DNA from: Rhizobium tumorigenes
GTDB taxonomy: Bacteria; Pseudomonadota; Alphaproteobacteria; Rhizobiales; Rhizobiaceae
Direction of reading: 5' to 3'
Length of the DNA: 64,000 bases
NCBI RefSeq assembly: GCF_003240565.2
Contig: NZ_CP117255.1
Location: 248,001 to 312,000 of the forward strand
Shown: positions 10,979 to 18,285 of the stretch, in pieces
Position numbering within the stretch: position 1 is the stretch's first letter
Layout: each line of letters opens with the position of its first letter
The notes under the pieces: model-generated
What the model was told of the DNA's origin: nothing
What the model saw: only the letters and a program-made list of their open reading frames with translations
Databases searched by the model: none
Program-made: the position numbers and the translations under genes

Positions 10979-12445
10979 ATGACACTCACCCAGGCACTCA
11001 ATACCGCGCAGGCGATCTTCAACAACACGGGCAAACAAAGCGCCGTCGTGTCGAACAACATCGCCAACTCCAGCAACGCGGATTACACCCGACGTCAGGC
11101 GATGACTACCATCTCGGCCGACGGTGCGACGGTGGTACAGATTGCCCGTTCGGCAGAGCCCTCGCTTCAGCGCCAGCTGCTGGCGTCAACCTCGGCAGAT
11201 GCCGCCCAGCAGCGGCTTCTGACCGGCCTCGGCGACATTCAGTCGACGATCGGTGGCAACGATAGCGAGACCGCGCCAGCAACCTATCTGTCCAATTTTC
11301 GCAAGGCGCTGCAGACCTATGCCGCATCACCGAACAGCAACACAACGGCACAGGCCGCTGTCACTGCGGCGCAGGACGTTGCCAATTCGCTGAACCAGTC
11401 GACAGCCTCGGTGCAGACCATTCGCACCAATGCCGACAAAGAAATTGCAACCACTGTCGGTACGCTGAACTCTCTACTCGGCCAGTTCCAGACCGCCAAC
11501 GATGCTGTCAAGACGGCGACGGGATCGGGTACAGACGCCAGCAATGCGCTCGATCAGCGCGATGCGGTCCTCAAACAGATATCTTCCATCGTCGGTGTCA
11601 AGACGGTCAATCGCGCCAACGGCGACATGGCACTTTACACGTCCGATGGCGCGACCCTGTTTGAAACACTTCCTCGGGCAGTCACCTTCACCCCGACCAA
11701 TGGCTATTCGGCCAGCAGCACCGGCAACAGCGTCTATATCGACGGCGTTGCCCTTGCACCAGGAAGTGGCGCCAACACCACTGCAAAGGGTACACTGCAG
11801 GCGCTGCTTCAGATCCGCGACGTCGAGGCGCCAACCTATCAGAAGCAGCTGGACGAGATCGGCCGCGGCTTGGTCACCATGTTCTCCGAGACCAATACGA
11901 CGGATGGTTCCAAGCTCCCCGGCCTGTTCACCTACACAGACTCCAACGGCGATTCGGGCGAGACGCCGACGTCTGCCACCGTCATTGACGGCATGGCCGC
12001 GTCCATCACCGTCAATCCGGCGGTCATTACCTCTGCGGGCGGAAACCCTAACCTTCTGCGCGATGGTGGTATCAACGGTACCGGCTACGTCAACAACACT
12101 TCCGGCGATGCTGGCTATTCTACCCAGCTGGATGCCTACGACACGGCCATGGGCACGGCGGTAGATTTCGATCCGAGCGCCGGCGTCGATAGCAATTCCA
12201 GCATCATGGATTTTGCATCGAACTCGGTCGGCTGGGTGGAAAGCGAACGCAGTGCCGCATCGACTGCAGCCGAAAATACTGCAGCGTCTTCGTCTCGCTC
12301 GACCGAAGCCTATTCGAACGGAACGGGGGTCAACCTCGACGAAGAACTCACTTTGATGATGGACATCGAGCAATCCTACAAGGCCGGCACAAAAATCCTG
12401 AGCGCGGTCAACGATATGCTCACTGCCCTTCTTCAACTGAACTGA
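10979..12445 (+). CDS. flgK: hook-filament junction protein FlgK (HAP1)
   Basis: FlgK joins hook and filament. The 488-residue protein has the N-terminal motif MTLTQALNTAQAIFNNTGKQ followed by VVSNNIANSSNADYTRRQ. Its central Ala/Thr/Ser-rich region contains LDQRDAVLKQISSIVGVK, a typical FlgK block. The C-terminal helix contains GVNLDEELTLMMDIEQSYKA and KILSAVNDMLTALLQ. Length and both terminal helices agree with the family. flgL begins 12 bases after the stop. Confidence 0.96.
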   Translation: MTLTQALNTAQAIFNNTGKQSAVVSNNIANSSNADYTRRQAMTTISADGATVVQIARSAEPSLQRQLLASTSADAAQQRLLTGLGDIQSTIGGNDSETAPATYLSNFRKALQTYAASPNSNTTAQAAVTAAQDVANSLNQSTASVQTIRTNADKEIATTVGTLNSLLGQFQTANDAVKTATGSGTDASNALDQRDAVLKQISSIVGVKTVNRANGDMALYTSDGATLFETLPRAVTFTPTNGYSASSTGNSVYIDGVALAPGSGANTTAKGTLQALLQIRDVEAPTYQKQLDEIGRGLVTMFSETNTTDGSKLPGLFTYTDSNGDSGETPTSATVIDGMAASITVNPAVITSAGGNPNLLRDGGINGTGYVNNTSGDAGYSTQLDAYDTAMGTAVDFDPSAGVDSNSSIMDFASNSVGWVESERSAASTAAENTAASSSRSTEAYSNGTGVNLDEELTLMMDIEQSYKAGTKILSAVNDMLTALLQLN

Positions 12446-12456
12446 CGGGTTAAGCC

Positions 12457-13515
12457 ATGAAACTCTCCGCCATCTCAAGCAGTGCCATTCAGAACGCCAT
12501 GCGGCTGACGATCAAGCAGTCGCAGAACGAGATGACCAAGGCCTCCCTGGAAGCAACGACTGGCGTCTATGCCGACATGGGCGTATCGCTGGGTGGCAAC
12601 ATCTCGCAGAGCATCGACATGACGCGCGACGTTTCCCGTCTCGACTCGATCATGGCCAGCAATTCCACGGCGGCGGCGCGCATGACCGCGACGCAAAAAG
12701 GGCTTGCGGATATGACGAGCCAGTCGCAGACATTTCTGGACCAGCTGGTCGCCCTACAGGGTAACCAGGATGGAAGCAGCATCGCGCTCTCCCAGACGAC
12801 GGCGACGTCGACGATCTCCTCTTTCGTCGCCGACGCAAACACGCAGCTGAACGGCCAGTACATCTTTGCCGGCACCAATACCGACGTTCAGCCCGTCACC
12901 GATCAGACCACGGCCGCAACGGCAGCAATACAGTCGGCATTGACAGACTACATGGCAGCCCAGTCACCACCGGTGACTGCCAAGAGCGACCTGACTGCCG
13001 ACCAGATGAATGATTTCATCAGCACCAAGGTGCAGCCGATGTTCCTGGACGACACGTCGCCGGCTCCGAACTGGAGCAGCTGGTCGAGTGCTTCCGACCA
13101 GAACATGACAAGCCGGATCAACAACTCCGAGGTGGTCGAGACTTCGACCAACAGCAACTCTTCCGGCATGCGCTACATGGCGTTGGCGGGCACGGTCGCC
13201 AAGGCGCTGATGGGAACCGATATCAGCAAGGCGGCGCTGAACGCGGTGACGACGAACGCCATCAGCTACGCCCGCCAGGGCATCGACGGAATGAATGCGC
13301 AGGCCAGCCAGCTTGGCCTGTCGCAGTCCCGGGTTACCAAGGCGAACGACGCCATCGGTGCCCAGAAGGACATCATCAACAACCGGATCGTCGACCTCCA
13401 GGGTGTCGATCCGTACGAGGCATCCACCAAGGTTAACAGTTTGGAAACCCAGCTGCAGACTGCCTACACCATCGTTTCGAAAATTCAGCAGTTGAGTCTC
13501 GTAAATTACCTCTGA
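12457..13515 (+). CDS. flgL: hook-filament junction protein FlgL (HAP3)
   Basis: FlgL caps the FlgK layer and receives the first flagellins. The 352-residue protein has flagellin-like N-terminal helices (ISSSAIQNAMRLTIKQSQ; EATTGVYADMGVSLGG) and a C-terminal flagellin-like helix (LQTAYTIVSKIQQLSLVNYL). The middle contains GQYIFAGTNTDVQPV, a common FlgL landmark. It is translated just after flgK and precedes flaF. The N-terminus lacks the exact enteric FlgL motif but fits the rhizobial family. Confidence 0.94.
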   Translation: MKLSAISSSAIQNAMRLTIKQSQNEMTKASLEATTGVYADMGVSLGGNISQSIDMTRDVSRLDSIMASNSTAAARMTATQKGLADMTSQSQTFLDQLVALQGNQDGSSIALSQTTATSTISSFVADANTQLNGQYIFAGTNTDVQPVTDQTTAATAAIQSALTDYMAAQSPPVTAKSDLTADQMNDFISTKVQPMFLDDTSPAPNWSSWSSASDQNMTSRINNSEVVETSTNSNSSGMRYMALAGTVAKALMGTDISKAALNAVTTNAISYARQGIDGMNAQASQLGLSQSRVTKANDAIGAQKDIINNRIVDLQGVDPYEASTKVNSLETQLQTAYTIVSKIQQLSLVNYL

Positions 13516-14962: not shown

Positions 14963-15229
14963 ATGAACGAAGCCGATGCATTGGATATCTTTCAGGCGGC
15001 GATCTGGACCGTGCTGATCTCGGCAGGCCCTGCGGTTGCCGCTGCGATGATCGTGGGCATTGTCATCGCCCTTGTCCAGGCGCTGACGCAGGTGCAGGAA
15101 GCGACCTTGACGTTCGTGCCGAAGATTGTCGCTGTCTTCGTGACGATCGGCATCACGGCGCCGTTTGTCGGTTCGCAGATCGGCATTTTCACCAATCTGG
15201 TCTTTTCACGTATCCAGTCAGGCTTCTAG
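14963..15229 (+). CDS. fliQ: flagellar export gate protein FliQ
   Basis: FliQ is an 88-residue inner-membrane subunit of the FliPQR export gate. It has two hydrophobic hairpin segments, at about residues 14-36 and 52-72, with the family motif ALTQVQEATLTFVPKI between them. The ATG at 14963 matches the family start MNEADALDIFQ. A TTG nine bases earlier is in frame but not needed. The stop codon TAG (15227-15229) lies within the CTAG duplicated by the adjacent insertion sequence, so the protein is intact although the operon is interrupted. Confidence 0.95.
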   Translation: MNEADALDIFQAAIWTVLISAGPAVAAAMIVGIVIALVQALTQVQEATLTFVPKIVAVFVTIGITAPFVGSQIGIFTNLVFSRIQSGF

Positions 15230-15657
15230 GCCACGGACTCATTAGTTGAGGCGATCCATATCCTCGTCGCGACAAGCTTGAGGGCGGCCATGTAATTATC
15301 AGCGCGCCGGTCGTATCGCGTCGCGAGGCCTCGCATCTGCTTGATACGGTTGAAGAACCGTTCCACGAGATTGCGCTGACGGTAGACCCAGCGGTTGAAG
15401 CTGAATGTCTGCTTTCGATTGGCCTTTGCAGGGATATTCGCCCAGCACTTGCGTTGCTTGGCAAAGTTACGAATTGCGTCGGTGTCATATGCCTTGTCGG
15501 CGAGGATCGTCGCGCCGGGCCGCAGGTCGCTCAACAGCTTTTCAGCCATCGGTGCATCGGCGGCTTGGCCGGCGGTGAGTTCAAGCCGAACCGGTCTGCC
15601 ATCTGCATCGACAAGAGCGTGGATCTTTGTCGTCAGGCCGCCGCGCGAACGTCCCAT
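15226..15657 (-). CDS. IS5-family transposase, OrfB part
   Basis: This is the C-terminal frame of the transposase (143 residues from its first ATG). It contains GRSRGGLTTKIHALVDADGR, the second catalytic aspartate block ATILADKAYDTDAIR, and the glutamate helix RNLVERFFNRIKQMRGLATR (the Y-R-E-type motif of IS5 elements). It is made by a -1 shift from OrfA at the A5G5 run. The joined protein then reads AKKGGSADPCMGRSRGG. Its stop codon TAG is supplied by the CTAG target duplication, the same bases that stop fliQ on the other strand. Confidence 0.9.
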   Translation of the reverse strand: MGRSRGGLTTKIHALVDADGRPVRLELTAGQAADAPMAEKLLSDLRPGATILADKAYDTDAIRNFAKQRKCWANIPAKANRKQTFSFNRWVYRQRNLVERFFNRIKQMRGLATRYDRRADNYMAALKLVATRIWIASTNESVA

Positions 15658-15998
15658 GCAAGGATCGGCAGATCCCCCTTTTTAGCGTTGGCACCATGCT
15701 GGTGAACGCGAACACAAGAACTGTCGATCATCACGATGTCTCCATCGTAACGCTTTGAAACGGCGTCCAGAAGACGATCCCAGACGCCCGCCTTGCGCCA
15801 TCGGGAGAACCGATTGTAAAGCGTCGTGCGCGGGCCATAACGCTCCGGCACATCTCGCCAAGACGAACCAGTCCTGAAACGCCACAGGATGCCGTTGATC
15901 ACCCGGCGGTCATCGACACGTTCAATTCCACGGCTATTGTTCGGCAAAAGAGGTGCAATGATAGCCCATTCTTCGTCGCTCAATTCATGACGGCGCAT
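15633..15998 (-). CDS. IS5-family transposase, OrfA part
   Basis: This is the N-terminal frame of the transposase (121 residues if no frameshift occurs). It contains LSDEEWAIIAPLLP, GILWRFRTGSSWRDVPERYG and the first catalytic-region motif IVMIDSSCVRVHQHGANAKKG. The family places the first DDE aspartate in MIDSS. The ATG is preceded by AAAGGAG at a good distance, but that ribosome site sits in the 3' arm of a 10-bp hairpin. The second half of the enzyme is in the -1 frame. Confidence 0.9.
   Translation of the reverse strand: MRRHELSDEEWAIIAPLLPNNSRGIERVDDRRVINGILWRFRTGSSWRDVPERYGPRTTLYNRFSRWRKAGVWDRLLDAVSKRYDGDIVMIDSSCVRVHQHGANAKKGDLPILAWDVRAAA
15674..15683 (-). other. -1 frameshift signal of transposase
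   Basis: On the minus strand the run AAAAAGGGGG lies in the overlap of OrfA and OrfB. A one-base slip back there joins the two frames into a continuous DDE transposase. This is the usual expression mode of this IS group. The site is seen in the sequence; slippage itself is inferred. Confidence 0.75.
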
Positions 15999-16000
15999 GG

Positions 16001-16022
16001 CAATCTCCTTTCAAGGAGATTG
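16001..16022 (-). promoter_or_regulatory. hairpin sequestering the transposase ribosome site
   Basis: CAATCTCCTT and AAGGAGATTG form perfect 10-bp arms around a 2-base centre, immediately before the OrfA start. The 3' arm in the transcript contains AAGGAG, the OrfA ribosome-binding site. A transcript reading in from outside would fold and hide the site, which would limit transposase synthesis. This function is known in other insertion sequences and is inferred here. Confidence 0.6.
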
Positions 16023-16197
16023 AATCACACACCGTCAATAAGATGAACCCCGTTTATGGGGACACTGCCTAGCAGAGCCAGGTCGGCCGGCAGGCGCGTG
16101 AGCCATCCTCGCGCAAGCTTCATCCCGTAACTCGACAGGAGAATACGGCAAGCGGCTCGTCCGCCGGCCTCCTCTCATGAAGAGACGGACCTGAAGA

Positions 16198-18285
16198 ATG
16201 GCGTTACCTCCTTCGCTACCCCTGCCGAAAGTCGCCCCGAATTTCCGCGACGTGGGATTTGCCGTCGGCATCGTCTCGATGCTGTGCATCCTGTTTCTGC
16301 CGATCCCGCCTTTCCTCATCGACATGGGCCTGGCTTTCTCGATCGCGCTGTCTGTTCTCATCCTGATGGTGGCGCTTTGGATCCAGAAGCCGCTCGAGTT
16401 TTCGTCTTTCCCGACCATCCTGCTGATTGCCACGATGACCCGGTTGGCGCTCAATATTGCCACGACCCGCGTGATCCTTTCCCACGGCTATGAAGGTGAT
16501 CATGCCGCTGGCGGCGTCATCGCCGGTTTCGCCAATCTAGTCATGGCCGGCGATTTTGTCATCGGACTGATCGTCTTTCTCATCCTTATCACCATCAACT
16601 TCATCGTCATCACCAAGGGTGCCACGCGTATCGCCGAAGTCGGCGCCCGTTTTACCCTTGATGCCATCCCCGGCAAGCAGATGGCCATCGACGCCGACCT
16701 TTCGGCCGGCCTGATCGACGAGCGCGAAGCACAGCGCCGGCGCAAGGAGCTGGAAGAGGAGAGTTCCTTCTTCGGCGCGATGGACGGTGCGTCGAAGTTC
16801 GTGCGAGGCGATGCCGTCGCCGGACTGATCATCACCTCGATCAACATCTTCGGCGGCATCATCATCGGCTATTTCCGCCATGGCATGCCGATCGGCCAGG
16901 CGGCGGATGTGTTCGTCAAGCTTTCGGTCGGTGACGGCCTTGTGGCGCAGATGCCGGCGCTGATCATCTCGCTTGCAGCCGGCCTGCTCGTTTCGCGCGG
17001 CGGCACGTCAGGATCCACTGACCAGGCCGTCGTCAACCAGCTGAGTGGCTATCCTCGTGCCCTCGGCGTTGCCTCCGGCATGATGTGCCTGCTGGCTATC
17101 ATGCCCGGACTTCCGTTTATCCCGTTCATCACGCTTGGCGGCATCATGGGTGCCGGCGCCTGGTTCATCCCGCGCCAGGCAGAGGCGCTGAACAAGCTCC
17201 GCCGCGACGCCGAAGAACAGAAAGTCAGTCAGTCCAAGGATCTCGAGAAGGATTCGGTCAAGAACGTTCTCAAGACCTCCGAAATCGAACTGGCACTCGG
17301 CAAGATCGTCTCGACACGACTGCTTGGCGCGCATCAGGAGCTGGCATTCCGCGTCGGCAAGATGCGCAAGAAGTTCGCGTCGCAATACGGTTTCGTGGTG
17401 CCGGAGATCAAGGTCACCGACGACATCTCCATTGCCGACAAATCCTACCAGATCCGAATACACGGCACGACCATCGCCTCCAACCTGCTCCGGGTCGGCG
17501 AAGTCCTGGTGGTCACCGGCGCCGGCCGCAAGCCGACCGTGCCGGGCGACGACATTCGTGAACCGGCCTTCGGCATGCCGGCCGTCTCGGTTCTCGAAGC
17601 TTTCACGGAAGATCTGAAGCGCGAAGGCTTCCAGCCGATCGACAACGTCTCGGTGGTGCTGACCCATATGAGCGAAGTCATCCGCAACAACCTGCCGGCG
17701 CTGCTGTCCTACAAGGACGTCAAGATCCTGATCGATCGCCTCGACCCGGAATACAAGAAGCTCGCCGACGAGATCTGCTCGTCGCACATGTCCTACTCCG
17801 GCCTGCAGGCCGTGCTGAAGCTGCTGCTTGCCGAGCGTGTGTCGATCCGCAACCTGCATCTCATCCTCGAAGCAGTCGCCGAACTCGCGCCGCACGTGCG
17901 CAAGACCGAGCAGATCGTCGAGCACGTCCGGGTTCGTATGTCGCAGCAGCTCTGCGGCGACCTTGCCGACAATGGTGTACTGCGCGTCCTGCGGCTGGGC
18001 TCGAAATGGGATCTGGTGTTCCACCAGGCGCTGAAGCGCGATCCGAAGGGCGAAATTATCGAGTTCGACATCGATCCGCGCAATCTCGAGGAATTCAGCG
18101 AACAGGCGACGCGAGTTATCCGTGAATTCATGGACAAGGGCCTGCCTTTCGTACTTGTCACGTCGCCGGAAACACGCTCCTATGTGCGCATGATCATCGA
18201 ACGCCTGTTTGCGACGCTGCCTGTCCTGTCGCATGTGGAATTGGCCAAAGGAATCGAGATCAAGATTCTGGGCGCTATTTCATGA
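16198..18285 (+). CDS. flhA: flagellar export apparatus protein FlhA
   Basis: FlhA is the export-gate protein that energises and selects substrates. The 695-residue protein has about eight N-terminal membrane segments (residues 18-310) with the FHIPEP-family block [20 protein letters not shown], and [21 protein letters not shown] cytoplasmic loop contains [20 protein letters not shown]. The large cytoplasmic C-terminal domain (about 350-695) binds chaperone-substrate complexes. The N-terminus is in the expected form ([20 protein letters not shown]). The stop overlaps the fliR start. The IS upstream separates it from fliQ, so its transcription may depend on read-through of the element. Confidence 0.97.

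Follow-up and report, generated by a model that had tools for sequence, protein, structure and literature searches.

A target-made transposase stop codon in an IS427-like insertion sequence at the end of fliQ in Rhizobium tumorigenes

Introduction

How can one pair of bases help to end two genes on opposite strands, one belonging to the host and the other to the insertion sequence that entered it? The question is raised by a 64,000-nucleotide stretch of the Rhizobium tumorigenes genome (contig NZ_CP117255.1, positions 248,001 to 312,000; the window in what follows), in which an insertion sequence is placed between fliQ and flhA, antisense within what we take, from gene order, to be probably a flagellar operon. 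The fliQ gene ends TTC TAG on the plus strand and the transposase frame OrfB ends GCC TAG on the minus strand, and T15227 and A15228 are common to both stops. The parts of the locus, in window coordinates, are as follows:

14963..15229, plus strand: fliQ, 88 aa (NCBIfam NF004671 and TIGR01402, Pfam PF01313), stop TAG at 15227-15229
15226, no strand: outer base C of the host target, which on the opposite strand gives the transposase stop its third base
15226..15657, minus strand: orfB, C-terminal part of the transposase (NF033580), with a target-formed stop TAG at 15228-15226
15227..15228, no strand: left copy of the TA read as duplicated, first two bases of both stops
15229..16069, minus strand: insertion sequence, read as 841 bp, IS5 family (IS427-like), with terminal bases G...C (from the comparison of ten copies and of relatives with both ends)
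15633..15998, minus strand: orfA, N-terminal part of the transposase (PF13340; NF033580)
15674..15683, minus strand: A5G5 run where orfA and orfB overlap, from its sequence a presumed -1 frameshift site
16070..16071, no strand: right copy of the TA, followed by the host outer base G at 16072
16198..18285, plus strand: flhA, 695 aa, uninterrupted (TIGR01398)

We read this locus, with a probability of about 0.9 for the joint statement, as an IS5-family, IS427-like insertion sequence that has no stop codon in its transposase gene, that entered a YTAR target with duplication of TA, and whose borrowed stop follows, as a by-product, from a target preference that is symmetrical at the two ends.

Results

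The fliQ site in related genomes

The genus comparison set consisted of 147 other genomes, the two nearest of which have a fliQ gene 94% identical to that of the window. In both of these the element is absent and TTCTAG is intact, the end of fliQ reading GGCTTCTAGCGGACC and the longer empty site ...CAGTCTGGCTTCTAGCGGACC..., and the downstream sequence aligns with the right flank of the window as far as flhA. The element was absent from the end of fliQ in all 35 relatives inspected (29 and a further 6), whose fliQ stop is TAG in 16, TGA in 17 and TAA in 2; in the first group of 29 the FliQ C-terminus is invariably ...RIQSGF. The sequence-only reading of this DNA had placed the insertion in the CTAG that contains the fliQ stop and held FliQ to be unaffected, for which it looked to an empty site in related genomes. 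That site exists, and the FliQ protein is unchanged by the insertion; the harmlessness shown here applies to that protein only. A terminator-like hairpin lies at 16047-16063 on the minus strand, at the right end of the element, a weak observation as the stretch contains three hairpins of this kind where 1.1 would be expected. A distant search of phage records with window positions 15100-16200 gave no match.

Family assignment

Both reading frames of the element pass the cut-off of 110 bits for the NCBIfam IS5-family transposase model NF033580 (133.8 bits for orfA and 157.5 bits for orfB), and the Pfam families matched are PF13340 and PF01609. The narrower name, IS427 group, is based on size, reading frames and target duplication, together with the descriptions in PMC3281130 and PMC4133298: there are two open reading frames in different frames, the length of 841 bp falls within the group range of about 830-865 bp, and a 2-bp duplication is indicated by TA on both sides of all ten copies in the genome together with unequal outer bases in three of them. 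The inverted repeats are weak, the two ends matching at 9 of 18 positions, where the group range is about 13-21 bp.

Ten copies and the length of the duplication

The genome carries ten full copies, that of the window included, nine of them identical over an 839-bp core and the tenth differing from these at two positions; relatives at 73% account for two more matches. TA flanks both sides of every copy, and the base inside it is invariably G at the left end and C at the right end. Outside TA the bases vary, with C in nine copies and T in one on the left, and G in eight and A in two on the right, such that the four-base flanks are unequal in three copies (L004, L005 and L007). The OrfB stop is formed by target DNA in all ten (TAG nine times, TAA once), and an in-frame stop within the element is found in none, which agrees with the expectation of the sequence-only reading that the other copies in the genome would end OrfB in the same way.

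That reading took CTAG itself as the duplicated unit, such that each flank would have a CTAG of its own and both stops would consist entirely of target DNA. Seven of the ten copies do have CTAG on both sides, and they fit either length of duplication, the inner G and C being the same as those in a CTAG target. The three copies with unequal flanks and constant inner bases count against a four-base unit, and the sites of two of them can be compared with the two nearest genomes, where the element is absent. At L004 these genomes have TATCAGG, so that a single substitution would have given the target before insertion, and the four-base unit takes more changes than TA. At L005 they have CTAG where the own genome has TTAG, a state compatible with either length and one that a later change in one copy of a duplicated CTAG would fit; the flank of L007 found no match in either genome. 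Of the 45 target-stop copies, described below, for which the two ends were both read, 15 have outer bases other than those of CTAG, always with inner G, and in a sister lineage (L087 and others) inner bases C...G give the two sides different flanks, CTAC and GTAA. The four-base duplication is thus contradicted by the unequal flanks, by the ends of the sister lineage and by those 15 of 45 relatives; we consider it very improbable and have rejected it. Since three of ten copies have unequal outer bases and all ten keep the inner G and C, the simplest reading of the copies in this genome is an 841-bp element in a YTAR target with duplication of TA. Of the earlier claim, entry into a CTAG at fliQ stands, and CTAG as the duplicated unit does not, since the duplicated bases are TA within YTAR.

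How the two stops are made

The OrfB frame stays open up to the element's final base (...GAG TCC GTG GCC), and the next codon is therefore TA with, in third place, the complement of the outer host pyrimidine. On entry into YTAR, mostly CTAG, with duplication of the central TA alone, the transposase stop is accordingly TAG where the outer base is C and TAA where it is T, and both forms occur among the ten copies. Any YTAR target would end the transposase at once, because that codon is then TAG or TAA. A host stop used as target, whether TAG or TAA, would likewise be preserved as a stop, the duplicated TA being completed to TAG by the first G of the element. At fliQ the transposase stop and the host stop are both built on one TA; the last base of the fliQ stop (15229) is the first base of the element. 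The claim that OrfB contains no stop within the element and takes its TAG from the target thus holds here (GCC TAG, 15228-15226), with the addition that the third base comes from the host's outer C. The absence of a stop should cost the element nothing, since the target provides one. Both frameshifting and mobility of the element are what we infer from its structure. In the sister lineage represented by L051, L055 and L087 the terminal bases are C...G rather than G...C, and an element of that kind landing on a host TAG stop should leave TAC, which is not a stop.

Stop arrangement among relatives

A total of 239 loci was classified, drawn from the own genome, genome searches, extra regions and a set of 80 named loci, the highest-ranking of at least 577 listed. 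After removal of 25 flank duplicates, 14 truncated copies, 11 loci lacking the terminal motif, 7 lying at contig edges and 6 with no match, 176 remained. In this sample the transposase ends on target DNA in 103 distinct copies (80 TAG, 23 TAA) and on an internal stop in 67 (49 TGA, 16 TAA, 2 TAG); these are copy counts, with several copies per genome, and not all represent independent lineages. The remaining 6 of the 176 show neither arrangement: in L064, L153, L274 and L281 the target-stop frame reads through, meeting TAC (L064), TT, CC or TC, and in L062 and L081 OrfB is in another frame. Judged from these counts, a stop supplied by the target proves common among the relatives of the element. 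Copies with an internal stop, which the sequence-only reading had counted against its own view, are absent from the ten own copies and common in the relatives.

Both arrangements can occur side by side. In one genome (G800; loci L143/L190, L191, L192 and L193) three copies have an internal TGA and in one a shift close to the 3' end brings the frame to a target TAA, the OrfB of the target-ended copy being identical over 125 tree columns. A quick tree of 103 proteins, built on few columns and with 46 of its 99 inner forks open, places 10 changes between the two stop arrangements, at least four of them forced by starred branches. It is conceivable, as a tentative extension that we hold to be less than even in probability, that a branch of IS5 has handed its stop to the target repeatedly, the end frame being labile and passing by one-base shifts between an internal TGA (of ATGAGTC), a target TAR and read-through; target specificity would then act both as transposase terminator and as a repair of host stops, and stop codons might in this way become tolerated landing sites.

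Is the target chosen for the stop?

The authors who described ISPsp10 have proposed that stop-giving targets are preferred so that the element stays active (PMC4133298, as far as its text on the element goes), whether such targets are picked or copies survive only there. The internal-stop copies, which have no need of a target-made stop, provide a control for this proposal. At the OrfB end, TA is followed by a purine in 103 of 104 target-stop copies, as the proposal would have it, and in 61 of 65 internal-stop copies, a slight difference (Fisher p = 0.07) that makes some selection for the stop possible. The internal-stop copies are thus nearly equal in preference without the need, and the other end of the element, where no stop is made, is equally strict: a pyrimidine is found there in 45/45 target-stop and 43/43 internal-stop copies, right ends having been accepted only beside TA (45 of the 57 and 43 of the 49 kept candidates, respectively, with some of the rejects, for example L006, being misplaced known ends). 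The 45 target-stop copies in which the two ends were both read have a purine at the OrfB end and an inner G without exception, and their targets are CTAG in 30, CTAA or TTAG in 14 and TTAA in one. We regard selection of stop-giving targets as quite unlikely. Given this near-equal preference in the internal-stop copies and the equal strictness of the other end, the preference looks symmetrical and hardly dependent on need, and the stop seems to be its by-product. Specificity for YTAR would be a symmetrical property of the transposase, of which the borrowed stop is a consequence that leaves a stop of the element's own dispensable.

Are host stop codons favoured landing sites?

Three of the ten own copies lie at the stops of genes with family support. 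Besides fliQ these are uxuA (TIGR00695) at L004, which ends at the element and whose stop is TAA in the inferred empty site and TGA in the relatives, and a beta-ketoacyl-ACP synthase gene (NF005076) at L005, which also ends at the element. A further open reading frame that ends at a copy, of 139 aa, had no family match. Within 400 kb sampled as background, open reading frame stops coincide with 53 of 779 YTAR and 11 of 186 CTAG sites. Four of ten copies against 53/779 gives p = 0.003, and three of ten, when only family-supported genes are counted, p = 0.026; this comparison is post hoc and based on a simple ORF caller. Such figures are what would be expected if copies at host stops were kept preferentially, the host protein being unchanged, and so accumulated there. 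Loci with local flank controls speak against it: 7 of 75 target-stop loci lie at host stops where 6.06 are expected, non-disruptive sites alone give 5 against 8.33, and internal-stop loci give none of 40 against 2.39. Another genome with multiple copies has 3 of its 8 resolved copies at stops (a ninth copy being unresolved), compared with 17 of 81 CTAG sites (p = 0.23). Preferential retention is thus unlikely, the excess in the own genome is a lead only, and the earlier suggestion that the placement at fliQ had been selected as harmless is unsupported by the 75 controlled loci.

A pooled comparison had also pointed to enrichment of target-stop copies at host stops (at one ORF threshold 14/101 against 55/803, at the other 12/101 against 26/705; p = 0.026 and 0.001). 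It was rejected, since it mixes genomes of differing composition and the effect vanishes with local controls.

CTAG itself occurs 23 times in the window, about a tenfold deficit from the roughly 230 occurrences that base composition would give, and the only one located at an open reading frame stop is that of fliQ. At L334 (G594:C1:1966808-1973218), a copy of a distant relative, two convergent reading frames of 801 and 302 aa, putative genes, share a final CTAG. Several copies of the element and its relatives (L001, L010, L011, L012, L059, L062, L072, L078, L083, L084, L106, L114 and L119) lie at a CTAG bordered by AATCTGCCAAAGTAGTG or CATTACAGTTGC. The junction of this kind in NZ_CP072145.1 lies between annotated IS701-family transposases, and the palindromic hot spot seems to consist of the ends of IS701-family elements, with one element landing in a CTAG beside the ends of another.

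Discussion

The locus shows a route by which an element can come to lie on the stop codon of a gene without a change in the protein, and the reading proposed here also accounts for annotated transposases that end outside their element. In the public annotation of a copy that is 99% identical, for example, the coding sequence ends at 11827, outside the element core at 11831-12669.

That a target can supply the stop is already in print. ISPsp10, an IS427-group element of Pseudomonas described in PMC4133298, has an ORF2 without a stop codon that takes its stop from the target, and it duplicated TA upon insertion before TAA; in the part of that paper dealing with it, its authors term the stop a unique feature. 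ISPsp10 is like the present element in its two open reading frames, stop-less ORF2, TA duplication and target stop. It differs in that the account concerns one insertion, in a target within the trap gene sacB and not at a host stop, and internal-stop relatives do not enter the comparison in the text seen (PMC4133298). What is new here is the frequency of the arrangement, the control by internal-stop copies, the way in which the two stops are composed and the case of a host gene whose stop served as the target. A remark on a single element thus becomes a common and measurable trait, and the internal-stop relatives form a natural control for the published stay-active idea, the preference being present without the need.

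Two other groups of elements bear comparison, each as described in the portions of the sources available to us. The IS427-group elements of Paracoccus (PMC3281130) are similar in length (832-865 bp), in having two open reading frames with a presumed frameshift, and in duplicating 2 bp, which is listed in 10 of the 11 rows given for the IS427 group; the stop codon, in contrast, goes unmentioned in the text searched. IS5 of E. coli is reported to insert at YTAR, CTAA and CTAG, much as the present element does, but in those accounts YTAR is stated to be the duplicated motif (PMC10359306, PMC11677980), where here it is the TA within YTAR.
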